In this document: positions 10 to 21,315 of the stretch, one piece after another
Position numbering within the stretch: the stretch's first letter is position 1
Layout of the letters: each line of letters starts with the position of its first letter
Origin: an uncultured Caulobacteraceae bacterium
Lineage (GTDB): Bacteria; Pseudomonadota; Alphaproteobacteria; Caulobacterales; TH1-2
Length of the DNA: 21,315 nucleotides
Direction: 5' to 3'
NCBI GenBank assembly: GCA_937967425.1
Contig: CALBST010000458.1
Span: 1 to 21,315 of the forward strand
Made by a program: the position numbers and the translations under genes
Notes under the pieces: model-generated
What the model saw: the letters and a program-made list of their open reading frames with translations, nothing else
Database searches by the model: none
What the model was told of the DNA's origin: nothing

Positions 10-55
10 ATGGCGCACCCGAAGGGATTCGAACCCCTGACCTCTGCCTTCGGAG
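10..55 (-). repeat. Left attachment site (attL): 3' tRNA-Arg fragment
   Basis: These 46 bases match 21261-21306 exactly. On the minus strand positions 55-11 read from the first base of the anticodon loop through the T arm and acceptor strand to the encoded CCA end; position 10 is one extra shared base. Identity stops exactly at the 5' edge of the anticodon loop, and the next bases (56 onward) no longer fit a tRNA, so this copy is a fragment. Tyrosine integrases often recombine in the anticodon loop of tRNA genes, which fits this boundary. Confidence 0.9.
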
Positions 56-171
56 TGGATTTTTGGCAGTTTTCTGGGCTGGTCGCAACTTGTACCGGCT
101 CGCAAAAATCCATTCAAATCAACGAATTTTCTTGCATCGCCTAAGTGTGTCTGGTCACGTGTTTCGATTTC

Positions 172-200
172 GGTGCGGACCAGGTGTGGACCAAGGTGAC
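172..200 (+). repeat. Left integrase arm-type repeat (two ~11-bp units)
   Basis: A 29-bp stretch with two tandem units, GTGCGGACCA and GTGTGGACCA, lies between attL and the integrase start. It matches 25 of 29 bases with 21195-21223, which lies just inside attR in the same orientation. Paired sites flanking the two cores are what arm-binding sites of a lambda/P4-type integrase should look like. They also overlap the probable integrase promoter, so integrase binding could autoregulate. The repeat is seen; the function is inferred. Confidence 0.65.
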
Positions 201-237
201 CTCTGCCCTCTCGGAAAAGCGGCCGTCGGCGGCTCCT

Positions 238-1485
238 ATGCGACTTACCAAGCGTGTTGTTGACGCCGCAGAGCCGCGCACCGCACGCTATCAGATTTGG
301 GACTCTGAGCTGGTCGGGTTCGGTCTGCGCGTCGAGACCTCGGGACGCAAGTCCTTCATCATCCGCTATCGCGCGGACGGCGGCGGACGCAATGCCGCCC
401 ACCGCTTGGTCACGATCGGCGCATACGGCGTCATGACGCCAGATCAGGCGCGAGCCGAAGCCAAGAAGCTCTTGGGCGCTGTGGCGACCGGCGCTGATCC
501 CGGGGCCGAGCGCCGATCAAAGCGCCAGGACCTCACGGTCTCCGAGCTTTGCGAACTCTACCTTCGCGAAGGCTGTCCCACGAAAAAGGCGTCGACGCTG
601 GCAACCGATCGCGGGCGCATCGATCGCCACATTAAGCCGCTGATTGGCACGAAGAGAATTTCGTCCGTCACGCGCGGCGACATTCAATGGCTGATGCGCC
701 AGATAGCCGATGGCAAGACCAAGGCTGACGTGAAAACGCGCCCGCGCGGCCGCGCCATCGTCCGCGGCGGCAAGGGCACGGCTAGCCGTACCATCGGCAT
801 GCTTGGCGGCATTTTCACCTACGCCGTACGCGAAGGCATGATCCCGGACAATCCTGTTCGCATGGTCAAACGCTGGCAGGATCGTCGCCTCGACCGCTAC
901 CTGAGCCAGGACGAGCTCGAACGTCTCGGCGACGCTTTGACGGAAGCGGAAGCCGCCGGCGAGAACCCCAAAGCACTCGCCATCATTCGGCTGCTGGCGC
1001 TTACCGGCGCGCGCAGAGGCGAGATCATCAATCTTGCTTGGGACGAGGTCGATTTCGACAAGGGCATGTTGCGGTTGCGCGACTCCAAAACCGGCCAGAA
1101 GATCATCCCCGTTGGCAAATCGGCGCTTGCGATCCTGGCGTCACAGCCGCGCACTGCGGATTCGGGATTGGTGTTTCCGGCCGACAAGCTTGGACGGAAG
1201 GGCGCCACGCGAACTCACTTTCAGGGCATCGACGCGATCTGGTATCGGGTTCGGACAAAGGCCAAGCTGCCGGACGTGCGCCTGCACGATCTCAGGCATA
1301 CGGCTGCGAGCGTCGCCGTCGCCAACGGCGCCTCTCTGCCAATGATCGCACGCATCCTCGGCCATGCCGACACAAAGACCACGCAGCGTTACGCCCACCT
1401 CTCGGATGCACCTGTGCGCCACGTCGTGGAGGAATTGGCCGAACAGGTTGCCGCCGCCATGCGCGTGCGCACGACGGCATCTTAA
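238..1485 (+). CDS. int: Tyrosine site-specific integrase (P4-like, DUF4102 arm domain)
   Basis: A 415-residue tyrosine recombinase predicted to excise and integrate the element at tRNA-Arg. The N-terminus (MRLTKRVVDAAEP, then GFGLRVETSGRKSF) is a typical DUF4102 arm-binding domain, followed by a core-binding region and the catalytic domain. Catalytic residues are all visible: R259 (TGARRGE), K284 (SKTGQK), H350 and R353 (HDLRH), H376 (LGHADT) and Y385 (TTQRYAHL). The frame is open upstream to 145, but ATG238 is chosen because family members start at the MxLTKRxVD motif and the upstream codons cover the arm repeats. No strong ribosome site is visible. Length is normal for the family and there is no damage. 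It is followed directly by a good terminator. Confidence 0.95.
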   Translation: MRLTKRVVDAAEPRTARYQIWDSELVGFGLRVETSGRKSFIIRYRADGGGRNAAHRLVTIGAYGVMTPDQARAEAKKLLGAVATGADPGAERRSKRQDLTVSELCELYLREGCPTKKASTLATDRGRIDRHIKPLIGTKRISSVTRGDIQWLMRQIADGKTKADVKTRPRGRAIVRGGKGTASRTIGMLGGIFTYAVREGMIPDNPVRMVKRWQDRRLDRYLSQDELERLGDALTEAEAAGENPKALAIIRLLALTGARRGEIINLAWDEVDFDKGMLRLRDSKTGQKIIPVGKSALAILASQPRTADSGLVFPADKLGRKGATRTHFQGIDAIWYRVRTKAKLPDVRLHDLRHTAASVAVANGASLPMIARILGHADTKTTQRYAHLSDAPVRHVVEELAEQVAAAMRVRTTAS

Positions 1486-1670: not shown

Positions 1671-2444
1671 TCACATCCGAAGATCAGCTCGACCCGGTCC
1701 TTCCGGGCGCGCAAGGTCCAGATCGACAACGCGCGACCGGATCACCGGCCCTTGTGGGCGGTGCGGAGCGGGGATTCGCGCAAGGACCTCCGCCGAGCGC
1801 GTCGTCTCGACAGGGCGCTTCGCGAGATAGCTCCCGAGCCGATTGGCTACCGGAAACGCCTCCATGGACAGGCCGATCTCGGCCAGCATTGTCACCAACT
1901 CGCCGACGGACTTGCCGTGCGATTGCCCCGGTGTGAAGTTCGCCTGGGTCACCATTTGTACAGCGTTGCGGGTGGCGTCCTGTTCGCGCCAGATCTGCGC
2001 GTTGACCGCCTCGACGCGCGAGGGGATGTTGAAGGCGCGACAATCGAAAGACGGGATGATGCGCCCGACGCGCTCGGGCCACGCCTCAGCAGCAAGAAGC
2101 ATGAATTTCGCGGACGCCATCGCTGCCAGCACGGACACGATCTTGAACACGCGCCCGCCGAAGATCGGGTCGCTCTCGGGCGTTTCGCGTTCGAGGATCA
2201 GCGTGATCTCGTCGCTCTGCGTGTAGCCGACCCAAGCGTGCGTCTCTTCGATCAGGCGCGCTGTGACGGTGCGCATGATGCCGGACATGCGCGCATCGAA
2301 GGGCTTGTCCATGCCGCGGGTGAACGTCGAGAAGGCGCGGCCGTCCAGCCTAACCACAAGCGGCAACCCCGGCGCGATCAGGCGCTCGGTTTCAAGGCTT
2401 TCATAAGCCTTCATCCGGTCGCCGAGCTCATCCTTGATGGCCAT
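1671..2444 (-). CDS. Thg1-like 3'-5' RNA polymerase / tRNA-His guanylyltransferase family
   Basis: A Thg1-superfamily protein of 257 residues. Thg1 adds G-1 to tRNA-His; bacterial Thg1-like proteins repair tRNA 5' ends by template-dependent 3'-5' addition. The metal-binding carboxylates are in place: VVRLDGRAF (D34) and GYTQSDEITL (D78, E79), followed by the conserved middle region (SFDCRAFNIPS) and a TPGQSHGKS segment. ATG2444 is preferred over an in-frame GTG at 2453; neither has a clear ribosome site. The last residues look shifted: after VVDLDL the frame reads ARPEGPGRADLRM and stops, whereas the +1 frame reads RARKDRVELIFGCD and ends at 1640, closer to expected family C-termini. A one-base indel near 1714-1718 is therefore likely; the catalytic palm is untouched. 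Family identity is confident, substrate unknown. Confidence 0.85.
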   Translation of the reverse strand: MAIKDELGDRMKAYESLETERLIAPGLPLVVRLDGRAFSTFTRGMDKPFDARMSGIMRTVTARLIEETHAWVGYTQSDEITLILERETPESDPIFGGRVFKIVSVLAAMASAKFMLLAAEAWPERVGRIIPSFDCRAFNIPSRVEAVNAQIWREQDATRNAVQMVTQANFTPGQSHGKSVGELVTMLAEIGLSMEAFPVANRLGSYLAKRPVETTRSAEVLARIPAPHRPQGPVIRSRVVDLDLARPEGPGRADLRM

Positions 2445-2473
2445 CTTAATCACCCAACGCTAATCAGCCGACG

Positions 2474-3513: not shown

Positions 3514-5280
3514 TCAAAGCTCTAGCCCGAGGCCACGTCCAAGCAGCTTGGTCATCGCCAGCTCCGGCGTCTTCGTCATTTGGTTGGCGAGGTTAAGCGA
3601 GACGCTGTCGCCGGCGCCGATGTCCATGCCCAATTTCATTGGCGTCAGCGCCACGTCGCGCCCGCGTTCCAGGATGGCGGTCTTGCCGGCGAACAATTCC
3701 TTGGTTTCACGCACGTTCCACGGCTCTTCGCCGCCAAAGCCGCCGCGGCCAAATTTCTGATCGCCGCTGCCGGGCGTCACGTCGCGGAAGAGCCCGTGCC
3801 GCTCACGTGTCGCAAGCTTGCCCTCATGCTTCAGCTCGTTGTCTTTGAGCGCGTCCATGGCGCCATCGCGGAAATGGAATTTACCGGCTCCGTCGCGCAC
3901 GCCGAAGCCTTGCTGCTCCATGAACTGCGCTCGTTGGTCCAAGGCTTCGCGCACGCCGGGCATGTCGGGCAGTCGCGGCGACTCGCCTCGTGCGATGCGA
4001 TTGAGTTCACGGTCTAGCTCAGTTTGCGCCCACACCCGGCTCTGTTCGCTAGGCGAGTGAAACGATAGCCGCTCGATGCCGCCACGCCTGCCGTCCGGCG
4101 TCAGCGTCACCAGCGAACCGCGCTGTAAATCGACAATCGCCTCCATTGAGGTGTTGAGCACCAGTCTTCCCTTATCGGGCGTCTCCACCACCAGCACGCC
4201 GCGATCGGGAGCTTCGCCCCGCGGGCCCATTTCGCGCACCTCGCCAGCGACGCGGCCCATGCTCTTCTCATAGGGCCGCGCCCGCGCCAGTTCGCGCCGA
4301 ACGTCTATGGAGCGCATGGCTTTGAGCCGCTCGGTCCAGTCGCGCTCGAAGGTCAAGACATTGCGCCGCGATTCTTGCGCCAAGCCGATCCGCGCCAGCT
4401 CCCGCGCCCGCGCCTTCAGCGCATAGGCGAAAGCCGGATCTCGGCCTCGACCCAAGCGTTGCAGCAATATCTCCGGCTTGCCGCCCAGCTCCTGTTCGAT
4501 GGCCTGATCAAGCCGCGTAAACCCACGCGCATGTGCTTCGCGGTCGAGTCGGAGCCGCTCGTCCTCGCGCCCACGGCCGCCGATCCGATCGGTCGCCACG
4601 TCGCGCGCCGCTTCGCGGAGTCCGTGGCTCACATAGTCGCGGGGGAGAAGGAGGTCGGCGCCGTCGCGGCGCACACCGCGCAAAATGACATGGGTGTGCG
4701 GATTGTCGGTGTTGTGGTGATCGATCGCGACCCAGTCGAGCCGCACCCCGAGATCGCGCTCCATCCGCGCCATGGTCTCGCGCGTGAAGTCCTTCAGATG
4801 CCCATCCTCGGACACGAGGCGCGCCCCGCTTTCCGGCGCCAGGGTCAGCCGGAAATGCCGCTTGTCATGCTCGGCCCAGTCTTGCAGCCGGTCCTGCGCG
4901 TTGCGCACTTCGTCCTCGTGGGCATCGTAGAAGCGGCCTTTCTCGCCTTCGCGCTCAGCCCCATCGCGTTGCAGGTACGACGCATGCGCCGCCAGATTGC
5001 CGCCGCCGCCGGCAGCGCCGCGCATGCCATGGTTGCGGAAACTGACCTTCGCCACCACACGCTGGCGCCCATCGACCGCGAACGGCCGCGCGCCGCGTCC
5101 TACGCCGCCGCTGCGGCCCACCTTTTTCCCGGCCAGCGCCGAGCCGAGCTGCTTGCCAAGCGAGATGCGGGCGCCGCTACTGCCGCCGCCCTTCTTCGCG
5201 CGCAGAATGCGGATGCGCAGCGCGTCTTCCTTGGCTTCCCGAAGCGCGTTGCGCGCGTTGAAGGACTTCTTCTCGAACAT
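3514..5280 (-). CDS. Relaxase, VirD2-like with DUF3363 domain
   Basis: A 588-residue mobilization relaxase that would nick oriT and lead transfer. A basic glycine-rich N-terminus precedes the nuclease domain: VVAKVSFRNHG, then AAHASYLQRDG with Tyr102 as probable catalytic tyrosine, FYDAHEDE, KRHFRLTLAPESG, and the metal-binding triad in AIDHHNTDNPHTHVILRG (His188/189, His195, His197). The remainder (THRLDQAIE-like helix, then SLVTLTPDGRRGGIERLSFH) fits DUF3363. ATG5280 has an AGGCAG-like site upstream; an in-frame start at 5343 would add 21 atypical residues. The gene is intact and full length, unlike the divergent coupling protein. Identification follows the conserved alphaproteobacterial ICE order relaxase-TraG-CopG. 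Confidence 0.9.
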   Translation of the reverse strand: MFEKKSFNARNALREAKEDALRIRILRAKKGGGSSGARISLGKQLGSALAGKKVGRSGGVGRGARPFAVDGRQRVVAKVSFRNHGMRGAAGGGGNLAAHASYLQRDGAEREGEKGRFYDAHEDEVRNAQDRLQDWAEHDKRHFRLTLAPESGARLVSEDGHLKDFTRETMARMERDLGVRLDWVAIDHHNTDNPHTHVILRGVRRDGADLLLPRDYVSHGLREAARDVATDRIGGRGREDERLRLDREAHARGFTRLDQAIEQELGGKPEILLQRLGRGRDPAFAYALKARARELARIGLAQESRRNVLTFERDWTERLKAMRSIDVRRELARARPYEKSMGRVAGEVREMGPRGEAPDRGVLVVETPDKGRLVLNTSMEAIVDLQRGSLVTLTPDGRRGGIERLSFHSPSEQSRVWAQTELDRELNRIARGESPRLPDMPGVREALDQRAQFMEQQGFGVRDGAGKFHFRDGAMDALKDNELKHEGKLATRERHGLFRDVTPGSGDQKFGRGGFGGEEPWNVRETKELFAGKTAILERGRDVALTPMKLGMDIGAGDSVSLNLANQMTKTPELAMTKLLGRGLGLEL

Positions 5281-5555
5281 GGCGTTCTGCCTATTCCGCG
5301 TCCTGCCGCAGCCCGGCGGCAAACTTACCCAGCCGCGCCTCAACTTGCGGAAATCCTAGCAAAACCAAGGGCCGAAAGCAACTAAAACTCGCTCTTTATC
5401 TTGCTTTAAGCCTCCATTTCTGCGACCATTACAATATAAACAAGTATAGATGAGCCGATGCAGCGCATGACAACTTATAACTACGAGGCGGGCGGACGAG
5501 ATGCGCAGCTTGCTGGCGTCAAGCGCGTTGCGCACCGGCCTTTGCCGGGCTGCGC
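5281..5555. other. Divergent intergenic region, candidate oriT
   Basis: This 275-bp gap separates the relaxase (left) from the TraG-like gene (right). The part from about 5350 to 5490 is strikingly AT-richer than its surroundings. It holds an inverted repeat AAAGCAA (5375-5381) / TTGCTTT (5401-5407) with 19 bases between, and GAAATCCTAGC near 5351, which partly resembles the IncP-type nick motif ATCCTG. oriT commonly lies next to its relaxase gene. The promoters of both genes must also lie here. The nick position is a guess. Confidence 0.4.
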
Positions 5556-7430
5556 ATGACGGCGTGGGGCCGCTTCTTGGCAGCCACCGCATTGGCGCTG
5601 GTGCTAATGTTCGCGGCCGTCACCCAGTTCGTCGCCTGGAAGTTCGATCAGCACCCGGCGCTAGGCGATCCCGTCGCAGTGGTGGACGGCGTCAGACTCT
5701 ATGCGCCGTGGCAAGTGCTCGTGTGGGCGTTCAAATGGATCGCTTATGATGCGTGGAAGGCGCTGTTGCACGCCGCGCTGATCGCCATGGCGCTGTTCGC
5801 CGCATTCGGACTGGCCGCGCTCGTCGCCGCGATTGAACCGCCGACCTTTCGCCTGCGTCTTTGGCGTCCAGGCTTCGAACGCTGGTGTAGATTGAGCCAA
5901 CGTGGGCTATTGCGGGGCGACGGCTTGGCGCTAGCTGGCGTGCGTCGTCATGCCTTGGCGAAGCCGGAGTTTGTCCGCCTCGATGCGGGACATGCGCTGC
6001 TGCTCGGCGCGCCGGTTCACACGGACGATGCCCTTCTTGCGGCGGTGGCGAACTGGCGCGGCGCATTGGTGTTCATCGAAGCGCGCGATCTCGCAGCGCG
6101 CCTGCCACGGCAGGACATGCTGCGCTTCGCGCCGGGCCGCGCCGACGCCATCGCCATCAACCCGCTCTTGAACGTGCGCGGCGGCGCCCATGCCTGGAGC
6201 GATGCGCAGATCCTGGCGCGCGGCTTTCTGCGCAGCGAGCAGAGCATGCTCGTGGCGGGCCTTGCGGCGCTCGTGCTCGACACGCTGGTCCATAGCGCAC
6301 CTCTGGCGCGCTCGTTCTCCGGTATGCGCCGGGCGCTCGCCGATCCGCAGCGGCGACTGGCTGAGTTCTGCGCGCGCTGGGCCGACCCTGTCGAGCCCGA
6401 TCTCGGTCCTGCGACCGGGGAGTTGACGCGCATCGCACGCCATTGGCGCCGCGACGGCGAAGCAGCGCTCAAGACCATGCGCGACATCGATAGGCGATTG
6501 CGGCTGTTCGCTGATGGCGATCACGCGCTCGCCACGGACGGCCATCAGCTCCGCTTCGCCGATCTGATGTCGGGCGATGGACCATCTTCGCTCGTCGTGC
6601 AGTTGCCGCCGGGACGAGAAAGACTGACCGCCCCGCTCGCTGCGGCTCTGTTGGCGCAGCTTGCCTCGGCTTGCGCGGCGATGTCCCATCTCAATGAGCG
6701 CCGCGAACAGAGCGCGTTGCTCGTTGTTGTCGAGGCCAGTGCGCTGGCGGCGCTCGCGGCCGAACAGGAACCCGCCGAGCCAACGAACGCGGCCTGGAAA
6801 AAGATGCTGCCGCTTTACGATGCGCTGATCTGCGGCGCACGCGGCGTGCGCTTTCTGGTGCAAGCTGCTTGCGCCAGCGAAGCCAGCATAGCGATCGGCG
6901 CCAAGCGTGACGAATTCGCCGATGACGTGCGCGACGTATTTGCCGCCATCGCCCCGATCGGGCCGCAAACCGAAGCGAGCGCGGCGATGGCGGCAGGGTT
7001 GGCGGGACAGGTCTGGGTCTGGAACCGTTTGCCGCATCAGGCCAGCAGCTTCGCGCGCTGGCTCTTGCCGCGCTGGCGGCGCGAGGTCGCGTGGGCGGTC
7101 ACGCCGGACGATCTGCGAACCGCCGAAGCGGGCGACACGCTGCTCTTGCTGGCGGGCCTCAAGCCCATACGCGGCAGGTCGCTGATCACCGAACGCGCCA
7201 GCGCCAGTTTCGTCGATGTAACCTCCGTCGCCCACGCGCCGCATGATTGGGATGCGCCTGCATTGGCGCCGGCTGCCGCTGGCGCTGCCGTCGCGCTGGA
7301 AGCGCCGCCAGCAATCGAGAATACGCAGACTAATCCGCCAGCGCTGATCGGTGGTGCGAAGTTGCGCCGCGCCTTGTCGCGTCGGGCCGCGCCAACACTC
7401 AAGCTTGACCATCGAGAAACACCGACATGA
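5556..7430 (+). CDS. TraG/VirD4-like coupling protein homologue lacking Walker motifs
   Basis: A 624-residue membrane protein matching the TraG family over its length: TM segments at about 6-28 and 68-93 around the periplasmic GVRLYAPWQVLVWAFKW, then the nucleotide-binding-domain counterpart. At the expected Walker A (APTRSGKG in active proteins) it reads LLGAPVHTDDALL (149-161), with no GK[ST]. At Walker B (LLLLDEFPALG) it reads LLVVVEASALAAL (388-400), losing the Asp. AINPLLNVRGG (200-210) matches the YNPLxEVR signature and supports homology. The C-terminus (about 560-624) is Ala/Pro-rich. T4CPs feed the relaxase-DNA complex to the secretion channel using ATP; this one should not hydrolyse ATP. 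The frame is open throughout, so it is not simple decay by frameshift. ATGA overlap with the next gene. Confidence 0.75.
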   Translation: MTAWGRFLAATALALVLMFAAVTQFVAWKFDQHPALGDPVAVVDGVRLYAPWQVLVWAFKWIAYDAWKALLHAALIAMALFAAFGLAALVAAIEPPTFRLRLWRPGFERWCRLSQRGLLRGDGLALAGVRRHALAKPEFVRLDAGHALLLGAPVHTDDALLAAVANWRGALVFIEARDLAARLPRQDMLRFAPGRADAIAINPLLNVRGGAHAWSDAQILARGFLRSEQSMLVAGLAALVLDTLVHSAPLARSFSGMRRALADPQRRLAEFCARWADPVEPDLGPATGELTRIARHWRRDGEAALKTMRDIDRRLRLFADGDHALATDGHQLRFADLMSGDGPSSLVVQLPPGRERLTAPLAAALLAQLASACAAMSHLNERREQSALLVVVEASALAALAAEQEPAEPTNAAWKKMLPLYDALICGARGVRFLVQAACASEASIAIGAKRDEFADDVRDVFAAIAPIGPQTEASAAMAAGLAGQVWVWNRLPHQASSFARWLLPRWRREVAWAVTPDDLRTAEAGDTLLLLAGLKPIRGRSLITERASASFVDVTSVAHAPHDWDAPALAPAAAGAAVALEAPPAIENTQTNPPALIGGAKLRRALSRRAAPTLKLDHRETPT

Positions 7431-7789: not shown

Positions 7790-8716
7790 CTGGCGGGAAA
7801 TGAACCCATCTGCGCCCGCCACGCGATGTTGGCAACCGAGCATTTCTCGCCGAAACGTGACATCTATGGCGCTTGGATGTTCCGCACTGGCTGCGCGGCT
7901 TTGCAATCCGACTAGGAGATTGGCACGCCCGGTCGTACGCTTTGCGCTATGGATAACGCCACTCTTAGCCTGATCTTCGACCGTCTTCAGAACGGCCACC
8001 TGCGTGCTGGATGGGCGCACACAGATTACGCCGAAATCCAAACAATCGGCGACGGGATTGATTTATGGGCCCGCCGCGTCGATGCGGCTCTTAATGTCGG
8101 CCTTTGGGCTCTTCTCCCTCAACCGATTGCCGGTCATGCCTAACGACGACGCATGCAGGTCACTGTCTTAAAGTCAATCGCTCGATACTGAAGCCGCGAC
8201 CGTCTTACTCGCTCGATTGCGGTCAGTGGCTTAGCGCCAGCAGCAACGGCGCGGTTTCGCCGACAACGGTCACTCTCGTCACCGCAAGGCCACCCTATGA
8301 ACGGACCGGCGACGACGGCCATCCGATCCGAACCCAGAGATTGTCGAGGCCAGCGACGCCAACCTAGCAAAGAATGCCGCCAGGACGAATGACGAGGTCA
8401 TTGGCCCGTGCTGCTATCGCTGCAACGTTTGGCGCCAGATTGAACACCAACGCGATTGTTCTCGGAAGGCACCATAGGAATCTGGATCAGGTAAGGGAAG
8501 TCCTCGCCGGGCTCGGGGGCGACTAAAGTAACGGGCGAGGAGGAAAGCCGCACTCCGGGCTGCGGCGCGGTCTCGAACGCGGTCCAAGGGGCCAAACTGA
8601 CCAAGCCGATCCGCGCTAAGGCTTGACCGATGTCATTGCCCGTTCGAGGCAAATGGGCGTGAAGTTGCGACATTGACGACATTCGCGCCGCCGCCTAACT
8701 TTCGCGGATCAGTGTC
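7790..8716. other. 927-bp stretch without a recognisable gene
   Basis: No reading frame here has family-like motifs. A 64-codon plus-strand frame (7949-8143) and a 94-codon minus-strand frame (8398-8682, with a hydrophobic PYLIQIPM stretch) are open, but neither has a convincing ribosome site or recognisable domain, and chance open frames of this size are expected at this GC content. Position suggests the scar where the trb genes were lost and the fluoride operon joined. The promoter of the fluoride operon should lie near its right end. Confidence 0.5.
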
Positions 8717-8768
8717 CAAGGGGATGGAGTCCCCCAAAACCGCCCCTCAAAGGCTGATGACTCCTACC
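8717..8768 (+). promoter_or_regulatory. Fluoride riboswitch (crcB motif) aptamer
   Basis: The sequence contains all conserved blocks of the crcB RNA motif in order: GGGGATGGAGTCCCCC (8720-8735; short stem with ATGGAGT loop), AAAACCGCC (8736-8744), and AGGCTGATGACTCCTACC (8751-8768). This class binds Mg2+-coordinated fluoride and turns on fluoride-export genes. It lies about 100 bases before the first start codon of an operon with two crcB genes, which confirms the call independently. Confidence 0.95.
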
Positions 8769-8787
8769 GCGTAGAGCGCGGTGGGAG
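8761..8787 (+). promoter_or_regulatory. Riboswitch expression-platform hairpins
   Basis: CTCCTACCGCG (8761-8771) can pair with CGCGGTGGGAG (8777-8787) in an 11-bp stem with one T.G wobble and a 5-base loop. Its 5' strand is the 3' conserved strand of the aptamer, so hairpin and fluoride-bound aptamer should exclude each other. Further hairpins follow: CCCGCCG/CGGCGGG (8796-8812) and CCGGT/ACCGG just before the GGAGG ribosome site (8860-8864). No T-run follows any of them, so control of translation or a Rho-dependent mechanism is more likely than an intrinsic terminator. Confidence 0.55.
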
Positions 8788-8869
8788 CAGCCATGCCCGC
8801 CGCAACGGCGGGAGCACCCCTCGCCGATCTTTTCAGCCCGGTCTTGAAACCGGAATGCCGGAGGCGAGC

Positions 8870-9043
8870 GTGACTGAAGTTTGGACCGCCGCGGAATTTT
8901 GGCTGGGCTTGTCCGTCATCACGACACTGCTTTCGATGCTCCCGCCCGACCCGCAGCATCCACGCGTCCTCACCCAGCGCATCGCGGAACTGGCCGATCA
9001 TGCTGCGCTCGGCGCCATTGTCCCGAAAAGAGGAGCGTCATGA
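8870..9043 (+). CDS. Small hypothetical protein, first gene of fluoride operon
   Basis: A 57-residue protein starting at GTG8870 with a strong GGAGG site five bases upstream (8860-8864), directly behind the riboswitch. It has one hydrophobic segment (AAEFWLGLSVITTLLSML, residues 7-24) and a soluble tail with TQRIAELADHAALGAIV. Its TGA overlaps the ATG of the next gene (ATGA), implying translational coupling. I do not recognise a family. It may be a real small membrane protein or a leader peptide passing riboswitch control on to the next gene. Confidence 0.5.
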   Translation: MTEVWTAAEFWLGLSVITTLLSMLPPDPQHPRVLTQRIAELADHAALGAIVPKRGAS

Positions 9044-9324
9044 ACGACCAGCAATTCGAAATCATCAAGCTGCACAAGCTCTGGGCCGACCGCTTCACGA
9101 TCGTGTGGCAGATCATCGCCGTCAGCGTCATCGCCGGCATCTATTTCCTGCTCGATCAGATGGGCGCCACGCCGATGGAGAAGACCGATGCGCTCATTCT
9201 CTTGGCCGCGATCGTGATCGTCAGCGCGGTTTGGCAGGCGGCCGGTCTTGCAATCGCGCGTATCCATATGATCGTGCGCGGCCTGAACCTCGACAGCTCG
9301 TCCCAATCGCGGCGTGCGGGCTAA
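9040..9324 (+). CDS. Small two-TM membrane protein of fluoride operon
   Basis: A 94-residue protein. ATG9040 has AGGAG four bases upstream (9031-9035) and overlaps the preceding stop. Two membrane segments are visible: FTIVWQIIAVSVIAGIYFLL (residues 19-38) and ALILLAAIVIVSAVWQAAGLA (51-71), with a charged connecting loop and a polar C-terminus (LNLDSSSQSRRAG). The stop codon is one base from the crcB start. I do not recognise the family. Position in a riboswitch-controlled operon suggests a role in fluoride tolerance, perhaps as a channel partner; this is inference only. Confidence 0.75.
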   Translation: MNDQQFEIIKLHKLWADRFTIVWQIIAVSVIAGIYFLLDQMGATPMEKTDALILLAAIVIVSAVWQAAGLAIARIHMIVRGLNLDSSSQSRRAG

Positions 9325-9325
9325 C

Positions 9326-9721
9326 ATGACCGAGACGCTTTCCAGCCTCTTATGGGTAACGCTTGGCGCGGCCATTGGCGGTCCTTTGCGCTTTTTCCTC
9401 TCCGGATTTGTCGGACGCCGTATCGGCGAGACGTTTCCTTGGGGCACGTTCGCCGTGAACGTCTCCGGCGCTTTTATTATCGGCGCCTTTGGCGCGTTCG
9501 CGCTGACGCGCGGTTTGACAAGCGCTTCGGCGCCTTGGCTCTTTTTCGTAACCGGCGTGCTCGGAAGCTACACGACCGTCTCGTCCTTCAGTTTACAAAC
9601 GCTCGCGCTGGTACGCGACGGTGAGCGCCTTCCCGCCTTGGCCAATGCCGGCCTGTCGCTCGGCGCGTGTGTCGTCTCCGCGGCGGCTGGCTTTGCGCTG
9701 GCTTCCATGATGGTGCGCTAG
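9326..9721 (+). CDS. crcB: CrcB/Fluc fluoride channel subunit (first copy)
   Basis: A 131-residue four-TM Fluc channel that lets fluoride leave the cell. Family signatures: GGPLRFFLSGFVG, FPWGTFAVNVSGAF with the pore Asn45, and GVLGSYTTVSSFS (78-89). The conserved Phe-box, normally F-S-x-F-S, here reads V85-S-S-F88-S, so one of two pore phenylalanines is replaced by Val. The second crcB copy keeps both. Fluc channels are dual-topology dimers; two adjacent paralogues usually form a heterodimer, so this subunit may supply one working pore face. ATG9326 starts one base after the previous stop. Length is normal. Confidence 0.95.
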   Translation: MTETLSSLLWVTLGAAIGGPLRFFLSGFVGRRIGETFPWGTFAVNVSGAFIIGAFGAFALTRGLTSASAPWLFFVTGVLGSYTTVSSFSLQTLALVRDGERLPALANAGLSLGACVVSAAAGFALASMMVR

Positions 9722-9722
9722 C

Positions 9723-10574
9723 ATGGACGGCGCCCAGGACAGCAAAGCGGAACCAGAAGTCGCCGCCGCAAGCGCATGGCGCGCACGTTTACGCGCCGAG
9801 GCGCCGCTCTATGCCGCCATCGCCGCCGGCAGCATCATTGGCAGCGTACTGCGCTGGTTGGTGAGCCTGGCCGCGCCGCTCCTGCTTGGCGCGAACTTTC
9901 CCTGGGGCACGCTGATCGAGAACGTCAGCGGCTCCTTCGCGATTGGTTTGATCGCCGGTCTGACCGGACCGGACGGACGCTTGTTCGTCGGGCCGCTCAC
10001 CCGACAATTTTTGATGACCGGGTTGTGCGGCGGCTACACGACCTTCTCGATGTTCAGCTTCGAAATGCTCGGCTTTCTACACGCAGCGGAATGGGGCCTC
10101 GCCGCGCTTTACGTGAGCGTTTCGATTCTGACCTGGATGGGCGCCGTCTGGGCTGGCGACGCCCTCGCGCGGCGCCACAACCGGCTTGATCCAAACGTGC
10201 GCGCTCGCGGCCTCTCAAAGGAGAAAGACATGCAAATCCCAAAGGACGCACAATTGCTGCGCATCTATCTCGGCGAGAGCAAACAATATCAGGGCAAACC
10301 GCTCCATGAAGCGATCGTACTCAAGGCGCGCGAAATGCACATTGCCGGCGCCACCGTGCTGCGCGGCGGCCTGGGCTTTGGCCATTCAAGCAGATTGCAC
10401 ACGGCCAAGATCCTGCGTCTGTCCGACGATCTGCCGCTCGTGATCGAGATTGTCGACAGCCAGGACAAGATCACGGCGCTCCTGAAGGAGGTCTCTCCGA
10501 TGATGGCGGCCCGCGGGCTCGTCACCCTCGAAAAGGTGCAGGTGCTGCAATACGGCCCGAACGGGAACGCGTGA
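9723..10574 (+). CDS. crcB: CrcB/Fluc fluoride channel fused to DUF190 (PII-like) domain
   Basis: A 283-residue fusion. Residues about 28-155 are a second Fluc channel: NFPWGTLIENVSGSF (Asn67) and GLCGGYTTFSMFSFEM with both Phe-box residues (F108, F111). Residues 170-283 are a complete DUF190 domain (AQLLRIYLGESKQYQGKPLH, then VLRGGLGFGHSS, LPLVIEIVDSQDKI, TLEKVQVLQY), a PII-like small-ligand fold often encoded beside crcB. The join, RGLSKEKDM, is the translation of an intact ribosome site plus ATG. The polar N-terminal 25 residues are unusual for Fluc. The frame is continuous and the gene starts one base after the first crcB. Whether DUF190 gates or senses is unknown. Confidence 0.9.
   Translation: MDGAQDSKAEPEVAAASAWRARLRAEAPLYAAIAAGSIIGSVLRWLVSLAAPLLLGANFPWGTLIENVSGSFAIGLIAGLTGPDGRLFVGPLTRQFLMTGLCGGYTTFSMFSFEMLGFLHAAEWGLAALYVSVSILTWMGAVWAGDALARRHNRLDPNVRARGLSKEKDMQIPKDAQLLRIYLGESKQYQGKPLHEAIVLKAREMHIAGATVLRGGLGFGHSSRLHTAKILRLSDDLPLVIEIVDSQDKITALLKEVSPMMAARGLVTLEKVQVLQYGPNGNA
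10217..10232 (+). promoter_or_regulatory. Internal ribosome site and start for a stand-alone DUF190 protein
   Basis: Inside the fused gene, AAAGGAG (10217-10223) lies six bases before an in-frame ATG (10230-10232) that matches the normal start of DUF190 proteins (MQIPKDAQLLRIY). This is better than the ribosome sites of most genes in the operon. A separate 114-residue DUF190 protein ending at 10574 may therefore be made alongside the fusion. Confidence 0.55.
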
Positions 10575-10575
10575 C

Positions 10576-11808
10576 GTGACAGCGCAAAACCAAGCAAGCT
10601 CTCCGGGCGCATCCCACCTCAAGATTCCGCCCACAGTCTGGGCGCTTGGGCTGGTGAGCTTCTTCATGGATGTGTCTTCTGAAAGCATCCACGCGCTCTT
10701 GCCGCTCTTTCTCACTGGCACGCTTGGCGCCAGCGTCGCGCTCGTCGGACTGATTGACGGCGTGGCCGAGGCGACCGCCTCTATCTCGAAAGTCTTTTCA
10801 GGCTATCTCTCGGACCGCTTCGGCCGGCGCAAACCGCTTATCCTGTTTGGCTATGCGCTTGGCGCTCTGACCAAACCGCTCTTCGCCATCGCGACCGCGC
10901 CATCGCTTGTATTCGGCGCGCGCTTCGCCGATCGCATTGGCAAAGGCCTGCGCGGCGCGCCGCGAGATGCGCTCGTCGCGGACGTTACGCCGGAGCCGAT
11001 CCGCGGCCGCGCTTATGGCTTGCGCCAAGCGCTCGACACGGCGGGCGCATTTGCAGGCCCGCTCCTTGCGATCGGCTTGATGTGGCTGTTCGCCGACAAC
11101 ATGCGCGCGGTCTTCTGGGTCGCTGTTATTCCAGCCGCGCTCGCCGTGCTGTGCGTGCTGATCGGCGTGGAGGATCGCGGCGTTCCCGCAGAAGCACGCG
11201 AGGCGCGCCCGCCAATACGCTTCAAGGATCTGCGCGGACTCGATGGCGCCTTCTGGGCCGTCGTCGCCGTCGGCGTTGTCTTCACGCTGGCGCGCTTCAG
11301 CGAAGCCTTCCTGATCTTGCGCGCCTCAGATCAGGGCTTGCCTCTGGCGCTGGCGCCGCTCGTTCTTGTCGTGATGAATATCGTCTACGCTGTCGGCGCC
11401 TATCCTGCCGGCGCATTGTCCGACAAGGTTCCGGCGCAGTTCATTCTCGTCGCCGGGCTTGCCGCTTTGATCGGCTCGGACTTGGCGCTCGCTTTCGCAC
11501 CCGGTCTCGCTGGCGCGTTCGCCGGTATCATCCTGTGGGGCGTTCACATGGCGCTCACCCAAGGCCTTTTCGCCAAGCTCGTCGCCGCGCGCGCGCCGCG
11601 GACGCTGCGCGGATCGGCCTTCGGCGTTTTCAACCTGGTGACGGGGATCGCGATGCTGCTTGCCAGCGTGATCGCTGGACTGCTGTGGGATCGCATCGGG
11701 CCCGGCGCAACCTTCGTCGCCGGCGCGGGCTTTGCGACGCTTGCCGGCGCTCTCCTGCTGTTGGCGGTTAGGAACGGCGGGCTGTCCAAGGCCCAAGGCG
11801 CCCTTTAA
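10576..11808 (+). CDS. MFS transporter of fluoride operon
   Basis: A 410-residue major facilitator superfamily protein with about 12 hydrophobic segments. The loop 2-3 motif A is clear: GYLSDRFGRRKP (76-87); DRIGKGLRGAPRDALVADVT is the characteristic loop 4-5 signature of its subfamily, and a related GALSDKVPAQ loop marks the second half. Start is GTG10576, one base after the CrcB-DUF190 stop. Substrate cannot be read from sequence. Lying inside a fluoride-riboswitch operon, it may export fluoride-related or co-toxic anions. Length is normal and there is no damage. Confidence 0.85.
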   Translation: MTAQNQASSPGASHLKIPPTVWALGLVSFFMDVSSESIHALLPLFLTGTLGASVALVGLIDGVAEATASISKVFSGYLSDRFGRRKPLILFGYALGALTKPLFAIATAPSLVFGARFADRIGKGLRGAPRDALVADVTPEPIRGRAYGLRQALDTAGAFAGPLLAIGLMWLFADNMRAVFWVAVIPAALAVLCVLIGVEDRGVPAEAREARPPIRFKDLRGLDGAFWAVVAVGVVFTLARFSEAFLILRASDQGLPLALAPLVLVVMNIVYAVGAYPAGALSDKVPAQFILVAGLAALIGSDLALAFAPGLAGAFAGIILWGVHMALTQGLFAKLVAARAPRTLRGSAFGVFNLVTGIAMLLASVIAGLLWDRIGPGATFVAGAGFATLAGALLLLAVRNGGLSKAQGAL

Positions 11809-11835
11809 CATGATCGCTTCGTCATATCGGGCCAA

Positions 11836-12636
11836 ATGACTTCCTCTCCAACAGCTCACCGCAGCTTGGCCGGCGCATTCGGCGCCGGAGCTGGCGTCGG
11901 CGCTCTTGGCGGTCTGATCGGTCTTGGCGGCGCCGAATTCCGTCTGCCGCTGCTGATCTCGCTCTTCCGCTTTCCGCCGCTGGAGGCGGTCATCATCAAC
12001 AAGGCGATGAGCCTTGTCGTGGTCGCCGCCGCGCTCGTGTTCCGCACGCGCACGATCCCCCTCTTAGAGATCGCCGACCATTGGAGCATCGTGGCGAACC
12101 TGCTCGCCGGCAGCCTGGTCGGCGCCTGGCTGGGCGCCGGTCTCGCCGTGCGCATGACATCGCGCATGCTTTATCGCGTGATCGCAATCATGCTTGTGCT
12201 GATGGCGGCGGCGCTGCTGTTCGCGCATGGCCTCACATCGCACGCCGCGCTTGCGCAAGGACCGTGGCTAGTCACGTTCGGACTGGCGGCGGGACTAGCG
12301 ATCGGCATGGTGGCGGCGCTGATGGGCGTCGCCGGCGGCGAATTGCTGATCCCCACGATCGTGCTGCTGTTCGGCGCCGACATCCGTCTTGCAGGCTCTC
12401 TCTCGCTCGCCATCAGCCTGCCGACGATGCTGGTGGCCTTTGCGCGCTACAGCCAGGACAAGAGCTTCGTGGTGCTTCGTACCCACAGCCGCTTCGTTTT
12501 GCTTCTTGCCATCGGCTCCATTGTCGGCGCTTTCTTGGGCGGCATGTTGCTCGGACTGGTTTCAAGCAATGTGCTCATTCCGCTCCTCGCCGCAATTCTT
12601 CTAATCTCTGCGGTGAAAGTCTGGCGTCACGACTGA
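11836..12636 (+). CDS. TSUP/TauE-SafE family membrane exporter
   Basis: A 266-residue membrane protein with seven or eight hydrophobic helices and the duplicated glycine-rich signature of the TSUP family: LGGLIGLGGAEFRLPLL (residues 23-39) and ALMGVAGGELLIPTIVLL (160-177). Members move sulfite, sulfoacetate and other small anions across the inner membrane. It follows the MFS gene after 27 bases with no terminator, so it probably shares the riboswitch transcript and ends the operon. No ribosome site is obvious at ATG11836. Substrate unknown; the context suggests an anion linked to fluoride stress. Confidence 0.85.
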   Translation: MTSSPTAHRSLAGAFGAGAGVGALGGLIGLGGAEFRLPLLISLFRFPPLEAVIINKAMSLVVVAAALVFRTRTIPLLEIADHWSIVANLLAGSLVGAWLGAGLAVRMTSRMLYRVIAIMLVLMAAALLFAHGLTSHAALAQGPWLVTFGLAAGLAIGMVAALMGVAGGELLIPTIVLLFGADIRLAGSLSLAISLPTMLVAFARYSQDKSFVVLRTHSRFVLLLAIGSIVGAFLGGMLLGLVSSNVLIPLLAAILLISAVKVWRHD

Positions 12637-12857
12637 AAAGACGCGACGCCGTTTGTTCGGGCTCGATGTGAAGGCCGTCTGCCATCGTGCTCGGCGGCGT
12701 CAAGGCGCGCTTTCGCTTTTCACCCTGACGCCGCCTGCGCGCGATGGCCTCCTGAAGGTGTCGGGACGCAGGGCTTTGTCTTTGGTCATCGGCGACGTGC
12801 GCCTCCGGCGCGGGCCGAACACAGGGCTAGAATGGCGCCGCGTGGGAAACTTTCAGC

Positions 12858-12882
12858 GGAACCATTCCCACGCCGAGGCGTT
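12858..12882 (+). promoter_or_regulatory. EcfG-type general stress promoter
   Basis: GGAAC (12858-12862), 16 bases, then CGTT (12879-12882) is a perfect match to the sigma-EcfG consensus GGAAC-N16/17-CGTT of alphaproteobacteria. It lies 34 bases before the response regulator start. A 9-bp inverted repeat GCGTGGGAA/TTCCCACGC (12840-12848, 12865-12873) surrounds the -35 element and could be a repressor site or a chance overlap. No other sequence noticed in the window matches this promoter consensus. Confidence 0.75.
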
Positions 12883-12916
12883 GCGCCCACTACGGCCTCG
12901 TCCGTTGGGGGATGCA

Positions 12917-13402: not shown

Positions 13403-13729
13403 CTATGTATGCGCTCGTGGTCCGAAGAGGATCACACCCGTACCGACCAGGCATATCGCCGCGCCAATGATATCCCAGCGGTCGGGCCGAACGCCCTCAA
13501 TGAGCCAAAGCCATGCTATGGCTGCTGCGATGTAGATGCCGCCATACGCGGCGTAGCTTCGGCCAGCATATTCGACATGCACGAGCGTCAGCAAATATGC
13601 GAACAACGTCAGCGACGCGACGCCGGGAATGATCCAGAACGGCGACTTGCCATGCCTCAACCACGCCCAAAACGCAAAACATCCTGCGATCTCAGCGACT
13701 GCAGCCCCGACGAAAGCCCAAACCCACAT
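13403..13729 (-). CDS. ynfA: YnfA/UPF0060 family small membrane protein
   Basis: A 108-residue protein with four TM helices and clear family motifs: [35 protein letters not shown] and [18 protein letters not shown]. YnfA proteins resemble small multidrug resistance transporters. Its start overlaps the end of the MerF-like gene by 73 bases on the same strand in another frame, so the two are probably co-transcribed from the MerR-type promoter. GAGGGAGA lies about 11 bases upstream of ATG13729. Length is normal for the family. Confidence 0.9.
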
Positions 13730-13977
13730 GGCCCAATTTTCTCCCTCACCTCGCAGATTGGCCTGTCCGCCTTGCGCCTACGGCACAGAATGAACACGAT
13801 CAGCAATCCTACAGTGGTGCCCGCACCCAGCCCAAAGCAAGCAATCTCGCCCCGGTCCAGCCCAAGGAGCAAAGCGCCTCCGCCTGCAAGGCCGCCAGCG
13901 CCAAGCAAAGGCAGGAAGGGCGGAAGACAGCACGCCAAACAGGCACGCCCAGAACCCAAGACAAACCGTTTCTTCAT
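13657..13977 (-). CDS. MerF-like small di-cysteine membrane protein
   Basis: A 106-residue protein. After a short basic start it has [18 protein letters not shown] (residues 13-30), a vicinal CC pair followed by Pro at a TM edge as in MerF/MerT mercury carriers, then a second TM ([14 protein letters not shown], 51-64) ending in CRRRK. Residues 75-106 are polar and overlap the ynfA start out of frame, so the tail may be an extension of a shorter ancestor. ATG13977 has GGAG about 8 bases upstream. It is divergent from a MerR-family gene across a palindromic operator, the normal layout for metal carriers. Metal specificity is not readable; annotation by pattern only. Confidence 0.6.
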
Positions 13978-14012
13978 GATGCGCTCCGCAGCTGACGCTC
14001 TTCGTGCTAGGA

Positions 14013-14029
14013 CCTCAAGCCACTTGAGG
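14013..14029. promoter_or_regulatory. MerR-family operator between divergent genes
   Basis: CCTCAAG-CCA-CTTGAGG is a perfect 7+7 palindrome of the kind bound by MerR/SoxR-family dimers. Read leftward, it sits between TTGCTC (-35-like) and TAGCAC (weak -10-like) with a 19-base spacer, the lengthened spacing that MerR activators correct. It would drive the MerF-like and ynfA genes and lies 8 bases before the regulator start. Confidence 0.6.
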
Positions 14030-14037
14030 AGCAAGGC

Positions 14038-14395
14038 ATGGCGACGAGCTTGACAATCGGAGACGCCGCCCGCCGCAGCGGGTGCTCGGTTGCGACCATC
14101 CGTTATTACGAGGAAATCGGCTTAATCCGCTCAGCAGATAGAAGCGCAAGCGGCCGGCGCGTTTTCGCGCGGCCTGATATAGAGCGCCTGCAACTTATTC
14201 GGCGCTTACGCTCGATGGAGTTCGGCATACACACCATTTAGAGATTTGCTGGCCGCCATGAGTTCGACGAATTTACGCCTTGACGTTCGCGATATCGTCG
14301 CCGCGCAACTCGCGGTCGTTCATGCCGGACGAAACGAGATTGACGCGCTGAAACGGACACTGGCCGGGATCGCCGGGAGTTGTTCAACTCTCTGA
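14038..14395 (+). pseudogene. MerR-family regulator, frameshifted
   Basis: The N-terminal HTH is intact: LTIGDAARRSGCSVATIRYY (residues 5-24), then EEIGLI and GRRVFARPDIERLQLIRRLR. The frame stops at a TAG after EFGIHTI (stop ending 14241). Skipping one T at about 14238-14240 restores the family sequence directly: RDLLAAMS, LDVRDIVAAQLAVVHAGRN, EIDALKRTLAGIAGSC, to TGA at 14393-14395. A single-base insertion is the simplest reading. The restored protein of about 118 residues is also short at the C-terminus, where the metal-binding cysteines usually sit; one Cys remains (AGSC). GAGGAG lies six bases before ATG14038. The stopped 67-residue form keeps the DNA-binding part but loses the dimer helix. 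Confidence 0.8.
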
Positions 14396-15836: not shown

Positions 15837-16823
15837 TCAAAGCCAGCCGCGGCGCTTGAAATAGTAGAACGGGATCGCCGCGGAGGCGATCATGAGCACA
15901 ATGGCGAAAGGGTAGCCCAGCGGCCACCGCAATTCGGGCATGAAGTCGAAGTTCATGCCATAGATCGAGGCCACCAGCGTCGGCGGCAGGAACATCACCG
16001 CCGCCACAGAGAAAATCTTGATGATCTCGTTCTGCTCCAGGTTGATGAGCCCGAGAGACGCATCCAGCAGGAATGAGGTGTTGTTGGAAATATAGGAGGA
16101 ATGATCGCTCAGCGACTGAATATCGCGCGCCAGACTGCGCGCGTGTTCGCGCAGGTCACGATCAGGTTTCGCTTCTTGGGCAGCAGTGAAGAAGCTGACA
16201 AGACGTCCAAGACTGACCAAACTGTCGCGAACCTTCGTTACGAGGTTTTGGTTGAGCGCAATTCGTGCAAGTAGAGTGCGTAATGCCGGTGTCGACCCAC
16301 CGCGTCCCTTCGCCTGCGCATCCTTCATCCTGAAAATCTCGCGTGAGATCGCGTCGACCTCGCGGCCGCTGCGCTCAAGCACCTCAGCTGCGCGATCGAC
16401 GATCGCCTCCACCAGCCCGATGAGCGCATGCCGGCCTGAGCGGCATGCATCCGAATGCCGGGCAGCGTAAGCTGCAAAGGCTTCGAAGGCGCGTGGGTCG
16501 CTGTAGCGGATGGTGACCAAAGTGTCGTCCTTGAGGACAAACGTCACCGGCGCGGTTTCCGGCGCTTCGCTGTCTGCACGCCAGACCACGTTCGCGGTAA
16601 GGTATAGCGCACCATTTTCTTTGTAGAGCCGGCTAGATGGTTCGATATCGAGCATCTCATCGGCCGTTGGCAGATCGAGACCGAGCTGGCGCTCAACCGC
16701 GCCTTCCTCTTCCTTGGTCGGCCGGTCAAGATCAATCCAAGTCGACCCAGCTGGCATCAGATCAAGATTGCTCTGATCGACGCTGCAAAGGCGTCCCAGC
16801 GCCTTATTGTAAGACTTAAGCAT
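15837..16823 (-). CDS. corA: CorA-family divalent cation channel
   Basis: A 328-residue CorA/MIT protein of the inner membrane that carries Mg2+ or related divalent ions. It has the large cytoplasmic alpha/beta and helical N-terminal domain (TWIDLDRPTKEEE, ADEMLDIEPSSRLYKENGAL), the long stalk helix, and two C-terminal TM segments. TM1 ends in the signature YGMNFDFMPEL (G289-M290-N291); TM2 is FAIVLMIASAAIPFYYF, with a basic tail. ATG16823; the ribosome site is weak. Length is normal. Because fluoride acts with Mg2+, its presence on a fluoride-resistance element may be meaningful, but it is outside the riboswitch operon. Confidence 0.93.
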   Translation of the reverse strand: MLKSYNKALGRLCSVDQSNLDLMPAGSTWIDLDRPTKEEEGAVERQLGLDLPTADEMLDIEPSSRLYKENGALYLTANVVWRADSEAPETAPVTFVLKDDTLVTIRYSDPRAFEAFAAYAARHSDACRSGRHALIGLVEAIVDRAAEVLERSGREVDAISREIFRMKDAQAKGRGGSTPALRTLLARIALNQNLVTKVRDSLVSLGRLVSFFTAAQEAKPDRDLREHARSLARDIQSLSDHSSYISNNTSFLLDASLGLINLEQNEIIKIFSVAAVMFLPPTLVASIYGMNFDFMPELRWPLGYPFAIVLMIASAAIPFYYFKRRGWL

Positions 16824-21260: not shown

Positions 21261-21306
21261 ATGGCGCACCCGAAGGGATTCGAACCCCTGACCTCTGCCT
21301 TCGGAG
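21261..21306 (-). repeat. Right attachment site (attR) within tRNA-Arg
   Basis: Identical over 46 bases to 10-55. On the left it begins one base past the encoded CCA end of the tRNA and on the right it ends at the first anticodon-loop base. After 21306 the sequence continues as the tRNA 5' anticodon stem, unlike the left copy. Confidence 0.9.
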
Positions 21307-21315
21307 GGCAGCGCT
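21262..21315 (-). tRNA. tRNA-Arg(CCG), 5' part beyond the window
   Basis: Read on the minus strand, the visible 54 bases give the anticodon stem CTGCC/GGCAG around the loop CTCCGAA (anticodon CCG at 21304-21302), a 5-base variable loop, the T arm with TTCGAAT, the acceptor 3' strand and an encoded CCA. Anticodon CCG reads the Arg codon CGG. The D arm and 5' acceptor strand lie beyond the window. The element sits directly at its 3' end, supplying the 3' half of the gene without changing it. Confidence 0.9.

Follow-up and report, generated by a model that had tools for sequence, protein, structure and literature searches.

Riboswitches of the fluoride family (crcB motif) are turned on by fluoride, and channels of the Fluc (CrcB) family let F− leave the cell. 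In the window analysed here, a stretch of 21,315 nucleotides from an uncultured Caulobacteraceae bacterium (contig CALBST010000458.1), such a riboswitch precedes a run of six genes, which comprises a 57-residue frame, a 94-residue membrane protein that we call p94, CrcB1, CrcB2 fused to DUF190, a transporter of the major facilitator superfamily (MFS) and a TauE/SafE permease (TSUP). The nearest tested system is the GI3 operon of Enterobacter cloacae FRM, which likewise has a riboswitch and six genes, crcB included, on an island thought to be horizontally acquired, and all six genes are reported, in the part of the source available, to contribute to high fluoride resistance (PMC5533749). The partners named there are ppaC, uspA, eno, gpmA and orf5249, with no MFS, TSUP or p94 among them, and the window differs by its added genes.

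Another described type is the operon joining a fluoride riboswitch to a Na+/H+ antiporter (PMC11139923, PMC11477304, in the parts available), antiporters being given as the next commonest riboswitch-associated class after exporters in the review PMC11139923. Of these operons, the riboswitch, the antiporter N-terminus, crcB and DUF190 persist in the window, whereas the antiporter has been lost and MFS and TSUP genes have been added; from sequence, we infer that a riboswitch–antiporter operon was its ancestor. The identity of the operon parts by sequence, their order and their recurrence are what we observe, and we consider it probable that, taken as a whole, the locus is an element-borne fluoride operon with an antiporter remnant, a p94 helper, a separately recruited MFS gene and a co-transcribed TSUP gene.

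The riboswitch operon and its antiporter-bearing relatives

The riboswitch proposed in the first-pass annotation was recovered by the RF01734 covariance model along its entire length (positions 1–64 of 64; 55.5 bits, gathering score 34, E 3.7e-13), the start given earlier, 8717, lying 6 bp inside the match at 8711–8773. The six plus-strand genes are also packed as tightly as had been described, with one 4-bp overlap, three 1-bp gaps and a 27-bp gap (Table 1). Between the aptamer and the 57-residue frame, a terminator-like hairpin followed by ATCTTTTC overlaps an alternative CCCGCCG/CGGCGGG hairpin, and the two are mutually exclusive. This arrangement fits a candidate transcription-terminating platform, and the available part of PMC2864571 reports terminators that overlap many crcB motifs. 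A consensus terminator scan of 8400–12900, which discriminates poorly (9 sites versus 5.2 in shuffles), listed no candidate site in the gap that separates the MFS gene from the TSUP gene. All riboswitch counts below rest on Rfam, as a loose text pattern gave hits without Rfam support, among them those in loci L165, L172 and L209 and a supposed second riboswitch before the MFS gene in L091.

Both CrcB domains, identified in a Pfam scan of 23 window proteins, score far above the PF02537 cut-off of 32.9 bits (79.3 and 84.6), placing the two proteins in the Fluc/CrcB family. They differ in the Phe box, which reads TTVSSF in CrcB1 and TTFSMF in CrcB2; TTFSxF is presumably the Fluc motif that carries the pore Phe pair. 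Among 150 matches to this motif in the collected loci and the window, a total in which overlapping loci recur, F/F was read in 115 and V/F in 26. One TTVSxF and one TTFSxF copy were paired in tandem in 7 of the 9 loci shown, the exceptions being L161, where the second copy reads TTFSAM, and L091, where only one copy was matched. This suggests that tandem CrcB pairs are mixed channels with one altered Phe box, and CrcB1 and CrcB2 of the window would form such a pair. No CrcB–DUF190 match was found in the viral contigs.

A close relative of the operon in gene order came from a CrcB–DUF190 scan of genome contigs, which gave at least 80 loci. In this Reyranella sp. locus (L076, NZ_JAFKJN010000007), two riboswitches are followed by a 404-residue Na_H_Exchanger protein, a 98-residue p94 homologue and CrcB and CrcB2/DUF190 matches. 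The order p94, CrcB, CrcB2/DUF190 under fluoride riboswitches is that of the window, whereas the second riboswitch, the intact antiporter and the lack of an MFS or TSUP match in the stretch set it apart.

The 57-residue frame occupies the place of this antiporter, next after the riboswitch. Three riboswitch-associated antiporters, one of which contains a masked interruption, were used as queries, and each found its best match in the window at 8870, start codon on start codon. Compared with 12 antiporter N-termini, the frame reached a mean score of 64, the next best of 1228 open start positions 27, and 0 of 20000 shuffles attained the score of the frame. Because it is start-aligned with the N-terminus of riboswitch-associated Na+/H+ antiporters, we read it as a remnant: it is probably what a deletion has left of an Na_H_Exchanger gene, and the simplest reading is an internal deletion that removed most of that gene. 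The similarity is confined to the first 23 residues, and the frame has neither a Pfam or NCBIfam match nor a complete PF00999 exchanger domain. It had been taken earlier for a small membrane protein of its own, a view that finds no support here, as it starts like an Na_H_Exchanger and looks like its remnant.

The p94 family

A search with the p94 sequence alone returned three relatives, 68–76% identical, and adding the Reyranella sequence extended the family to 64 proteins, counting that of the window, with E values no higher than 0.01. Eight residues (H12, K13, D17, L55, W65, L70, R74 and H76) are invariant in an alignment of 39 sequences, 38 relatives and the window. The predicted fold is a hairpin of two long helices (3–40 and 45–81; pLDDT 83, pTM 0.61), for which no PDB match was found at E ≤ 0.001, nor a solved relative by sequence, and the window protein has no Pfam match. 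PpoB2 was considered as an assignment (best E 0.0015, in 9 of the 39 members), but these scattered weak matches were treated as chance.

In the genome searches, whose counts are lower bounds throughout, p94 appeared in 2 of 30 genomes behind crcB loci, in 1 of 385 genomes of the class and 1 of 76 of the order of the Reyranella, that genome itself in both cases, and in 2 of 151 genomes of the family of G027, namely G027 and G570. The 72,556 plasmid records and the viral contigs held no match; two exact peptide patterns found none in the genome contigs either, a scan of little weight, as it also missed the Reyranella copy. In all three genomes in which a homologue was located (G025, G027 and G570) it lies directly upstream of crcB, and one of the three was found independently of crcB. 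In G027 (L087) the run begins with a riboswitch, an antiporter and a Usp-like gene and continues with an unassigned frame, a MutS_V protein and then p94, CrcB, CrcB2 and DUF190.

We therefore regard p94 as a conserved accessory membrane protein of fluoride operons, most likely a helper subunit. A possible, if somewhat unlikely, alternative is that it serves the antiporter, or answers general membrane stress, rather than the Fluc channel, and is now an orphan in the window. The Reyranella gene does sit directly after the antiporter, and that of L087 belongs to a run that starts with riboswitch and antiporter. However, the p94 frame of the window is still open although the antiporter has been lost, and in G570 the 12.6 kb read show p94 next to crcB but no antiporter match, both of which speak against this alternative.

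Recurrence of the MFS and TSUP genes

Baker et al. (2012) reportedly provide the main survey of the genes that fluoride riboswitches control. In the literature searched, whose scope excludes that survey (which may list MFS genes), no MFS gene was tied to a fluoride riboswitch; the parts available of PMC11139923, PMC5533749, PMC7266159, PMC12595759 and PMC11477304 hold no such link. As far as the available text goes, the crcB-motif report PMC2864571 lists mutS together with genes for K+ and Cl− transport and for formate hydrogen lyase, its main text mentioning neither MFS nor TauE, the TauE of PMC7266159 concerns ykkC riboswitches, and PMC13104614 deals with a benzoate transporter in fluoride tolerance.

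By sequence, the closest solved relatives of the window MFS protein are NorA and 3wdo, the latter of which we take to be YajR. Riboswitches above cut-off were found in 19 of 385 genomes of the class sample (22 riboswitches) and in 32 of 297 genomes of the order of G027 (46 riboswitches), and the gene context was read at every one of these places. In the order, a gene of this MFS subfamily lies directly 3' of 5 of the 46 riboswitches (L108, L135, L136, L139 and L144), against a rough chance expectation of 0.0007. These five copies share 55–58% identity with the window MFS, each is followed by one or two CrcB genes, Rfam re-found the riboswitch at all five loci, and the stretches read contain no antiporter match. 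L136 and L139 come closest to the window, sharing with it the riboswitch, the MFS subfamily (57–58% identity), CrcB1, CrcB2 and DUF190; unlike the window, they have the MFS gene first, of another clade, and no p94 or TSUP match.

The subfamily itself is present in 49 of the 297 genomes, and riboswitches occur in 17 of these 49 versus 15 of the 248 without it (Fisher p 3e-7, a value that ignores kinship and genome size). Contexts were read for 45 of the 49 matches, the partial ones of G688, G704, G723 and G839 being left out, and crcB adjoins the MFS gene in six: the five riboswitch loci and L161, where the order is MFS, DUF190, CrcB, CrcB and no riboswitch was found. In addition, L091 has a 53% identical copy just upstream of a riboswitch–antiporter–crcB run, a more distant MFS protein lies downstream of a riboswitch in G778 (27%), and 32% matches follow CrcB–DUF190 in two Chloroflexota loci (L073 and L082).

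In a tree of 54 rows the window MFS joins a Xanthobacter plasmid copy (support 100/99), the five riboswitch-linked copies form another clade (100/100) and L161 stands apart. The fluoride label needs three changes on this tree, and a single clade is rejected (approximately unbiased test, p-AU 0.0013), which most simply suggests three separate recruitments of the subfamily into fluoride operons, that of the window included.

On plasmids, 192 records matched the MFS protein at E 1e-5, and in 118 the match covered 80% or more of its length. In six contexts that were opened, ChrB/DUF1127 adjoins the MFS gene in two, the other neighbours being Usp and drug-transport genes, an anion transporter, phosphatases or nothing notable, and crcB–DUF190 occurs in one, about 4 kb off and on the opposite strand. 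Alphaproteobacterial plasmids carry ChrB–DUF1127–MFS cassettes (L002, L006 and L008) whose MFS proteins are 59–60% identical to that of the window, with TSUP close by in L006 and L008; unlike the window, their context is of chromate type, with no crcB in the stretch.

For TSUP, the search of the order gave 14 copies in 13 of the 297 genomes, and riboswitches above cut-off occur in 5 of these 13 genomes versus 27 of the 284 others (Fisher p 0.007). On plasmids, TSUP lies 4.5 kb from crcB–crcB–DUF190 in L009 and upstream of a riboswitch–CLC–enolase–Usp run in L012, while in L005 and L011 the stretch has no such fluoride genes. The link between TSUP and fluoride is suggestive only.

These plasmid contexts bear on an alternative that we judge unlikely, in which CrcB and CrcB–DUF190, perhaps with p94, are alone in serving fluoride, and MFS and TSUP belong to the general metal or oxyanion cargo of a stress island that lies downstream by chance and is transcribed by read-through from the one promoter. 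It would account for the MFS genes that follow ChrB and DUF1127, for ChrB near the genomic MFS (3 of the 20 contexts in one batch, none of the 20 in the second), and for the Neotabrizicola plasmid (L008) that groups MFS, TSUP, YnfA and CorA with no crcB in the 12.7 kb read; the window too holds YnfA and CorA, and the gap before TSUP is the widest in the run. Yet five genomes have the MFS gene immediately behind the riboswitch, a sixth has it alongside crcB, as does the window, these cases fall on separate branches of the tree, and the window MFS starts 1 bp past the CrcB–DUF190 stop. The riboswitch survey in particular weakens the view of the MFS gene as a simple chromate-island gene.

Two groups of several fluoride riboswitches were seen in the course of these surveys. 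In G778 (contig C22, about 157–177 kb; L126 and L127) seven are spread over about 20 kb, interspersed with matches to CrcB/DUF190, CLC, enolase and Usp genes, which makes this a dense fluoride island, and a Methylocystis plasmid (L010) has three (4004–4065, 7009–7070 and 9497–9558), which surround antiporter, Usp, crcB, DUF190 and enolase genes.

The mobile element and the proposed course of events

A perfect 46-bp repeat lies near each end of the contig and a tyrosine integrase gene just inside the left copy, so the contig corresponds almost exactly to a single integrated element, about 21.25 kb long. Repeats of a tRNA 3' end that enclose a tyrosine integrase are those of a tRNA-targeted integrative element, and the earlier claim that the operon lies on a mobile element is thus well founded. 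The RF00005 match at the right end (21265–21315, minus strand) has the anticodon CCG, hence Arg, as read by eye from the alignment; ARAGORN listed no complete tRNA in the window. The integrase gene is followed by a gene of Thg1 type, genes for two HTH_17 proteins and one for a relaxase-like DUF3363 protein, whose PF03432 (Relaxase) match of 21.4 bits is below the cut-off of 24.6. The presence of a tRNA-His guanylyltransferase gene of Thg1 type within a bacterial mobile element is an observation in its own right, as is a small frame at 13657–14034, membrane-like by eye and without a Pfam match, which diverges from a MerR-type frame. Megablast of the window against plasmids gave only two short matches.

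Table 1. Features of the window, in order of position.
Feature	Position	Strand	Evidence and remarks
Left attachment (att) copy, perfect 46-bp direct repeat	10-55		3' half of tRNA gene; RF00005 match
Tyrosine integrase	145-1485	+	Just inside left att copy; PF00589, PF13356, PF14659
Thg1-type tRNA-His guanylyltransferase	1671-2453		Pfam
Relaxase-like mobilization protein (DUF3363)	3514-5343	-	PF11843 50.5 bits, above cut-off
Fluoride riboswitch aptamer (crcB motif)	8711-8773	+	RF01734 55.5 bits
Possible expression platform, terminator-like hairpin then ATCTTTTC	8806-8826	+	Pattern match only
57-residue frame	8870-9043	+	Probable remnant of riboswitch-associated Na+/H+ antiporter gene; N-terminal 23 codons recognisable
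p94, 94-residue two-helix membrane protein	9040-9324	+	Unnamed fluoride-associated family; 4-bp ATGA overlap with 57-residue frame
CrcB1, Fluc subunit	9326-9721	+	1-bp gap; altered Phe box TTVSSF; PF02537 79.3 bits; NF010799 above cut-off
CrcB2 fused to DUF190	9723-10574	+	1-bp gap; TTFSMF; PF02537 84.6 bits, PF02641
MFS exporter, subfamily recurrent in fluoride operons	10576-11808	+	GTG start; 1-bp gap; PF07690 150.4 bits (cut-off 33.4)
TSUP (TauE/SafE) permease	11836-12636	+	Final gene of run; 27-bp gap; PF01925 100.9 bits (cut-off 32.6)
YnfA gene	13403-13729		Pfam
MerR-type frame, 67 residues, possibly truncated	14038-14241		Divergent from frame 13657-14034
CorA gene	15837-16823		Pfam
Right att copy, second copy of 46-bp repeat	21261-21306		tRNA gene (minus) runs off contig

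In the course of events that we propose, the operon would be cargo of this mobilizable element of 21.25 kb, seated in the 3' end of a tRNA gene, and would be turned on when fluoride binds the riboswitch. Its core output would be the Fluc subunits CrcB1 and CrcB2–DUF190, presumably paired, which release F−. The ancestor, judging by sequence, may have had the order riboswitch, Na+/H+ antiporter, p94, crcB, crcB–DUF190 seen in Reyranella; most of the antiporter would then have been deleted, its first 23 codons persisting as the start of the 57-residue frame, with p94 kept as an accessory membrane protein, most likely a helper subunit. The MFS exporter would have been gained separately, and as three is the simplest count of the entries of its subfamily into fluoride operons, its probable role is to relieve a stress accompanying fluoride (such as acidification, or a toxic metal or anion) and not to replace CrcB. 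In the weakest step, the terminal TSUP would probably be an anion exporter, co-transcribed with the other genes. The roles of MFS, TSUP and p94 are ones that we infer.

Several observations weigh against this course of events. The 57-residue frame has no clear similarity to any antiporter part beyond residue 23. Of the three p94 loci, those of G025 and G027 were reached through the CrcB–DUF190 scan, which was not the case of G570, and the p94 of G570 is split over two frames, with no riboswitch detected nearby. The class sample has a gene of this MFS subfamily directly after only 1 of its 22 riboswitches, and that genome (G390) is among the five already counted, whose riboswitch–MFS operons form one clade. 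In 39 of the 45 MFS contexts, read for about 5 kb to either side (36 of the 40 outside the five span at least 3 kb on both sides), no crcB was found, and the direct neighbours of the non-fluoride copies (76 proteins, 98 Pfam families, the top 25 of which were examined) share no partner, the top family reaching 4 of 76 proteins. Within 6 kb of the nearest relative of the window MFS, that of the Xanthobacter plasmid, no crcB was matched, and a label change on the tree need not be a gain but may reflect a loss. Finally, TSUP adjoins a riboswitch–crcB operon in 1 of its 14 copies (G836, on the opposite strand), the stretches around the other 13 having no crcB match. The recurrent association with crcB or fluoride riboswitches raised in the first-pass annotation thus held for p94, beside crcB in each of three genomes, and for the MFS subfamily, found directly after riboswitches or beside crcB, and was weak for TSUP.

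A more specific proposal, which we find quite doubtful, joins two roles: the MFS protein as a non-homologous stand-in for the Na+/H+ antiporter, and p94 as a dedicated accessory subunit of the Fluc pair. The MFS protein would then restore pH under fluoride stress by proton/cation exchange or weak-acid export, and the window would capture the swap, in which erosion has left a few dozen codons of the antiporter and an MFS gene has been gained; the first place of the MFS gene in the five riboswitch–MFS–crcB loci bears on this proposal. It is very improbable that the 57-residue frame is a functional small protein or a regulatory leader peptide and not a mere remnant, for although a start codon and a GGAGG site have been preserved and the stop of the frame overlaps the first codon of p94 (ATGA), features that might allow its translation and translational coupling with p94, it matches an antiporter N-terminus start on start, holds the antiporter's position in L076 and lacks a Pfam or NCBIfam match (no search for its own homologues was made).

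Genes under orphan riboswitches guide the assignment of function, sometimes falsely, as the story of crcB tells in the available part of PMC7266159. As cargo of a tRNA-integrated mobilizable element, the operon illustrates a possible route by which such operons move. The repeated capture of the MFS subfamily and of p94 by fluoride operons makes them two candidate fluoride-stress genes, going beyond Fluc, CLC-F, antiporters, enolase and pyrophosphatase.

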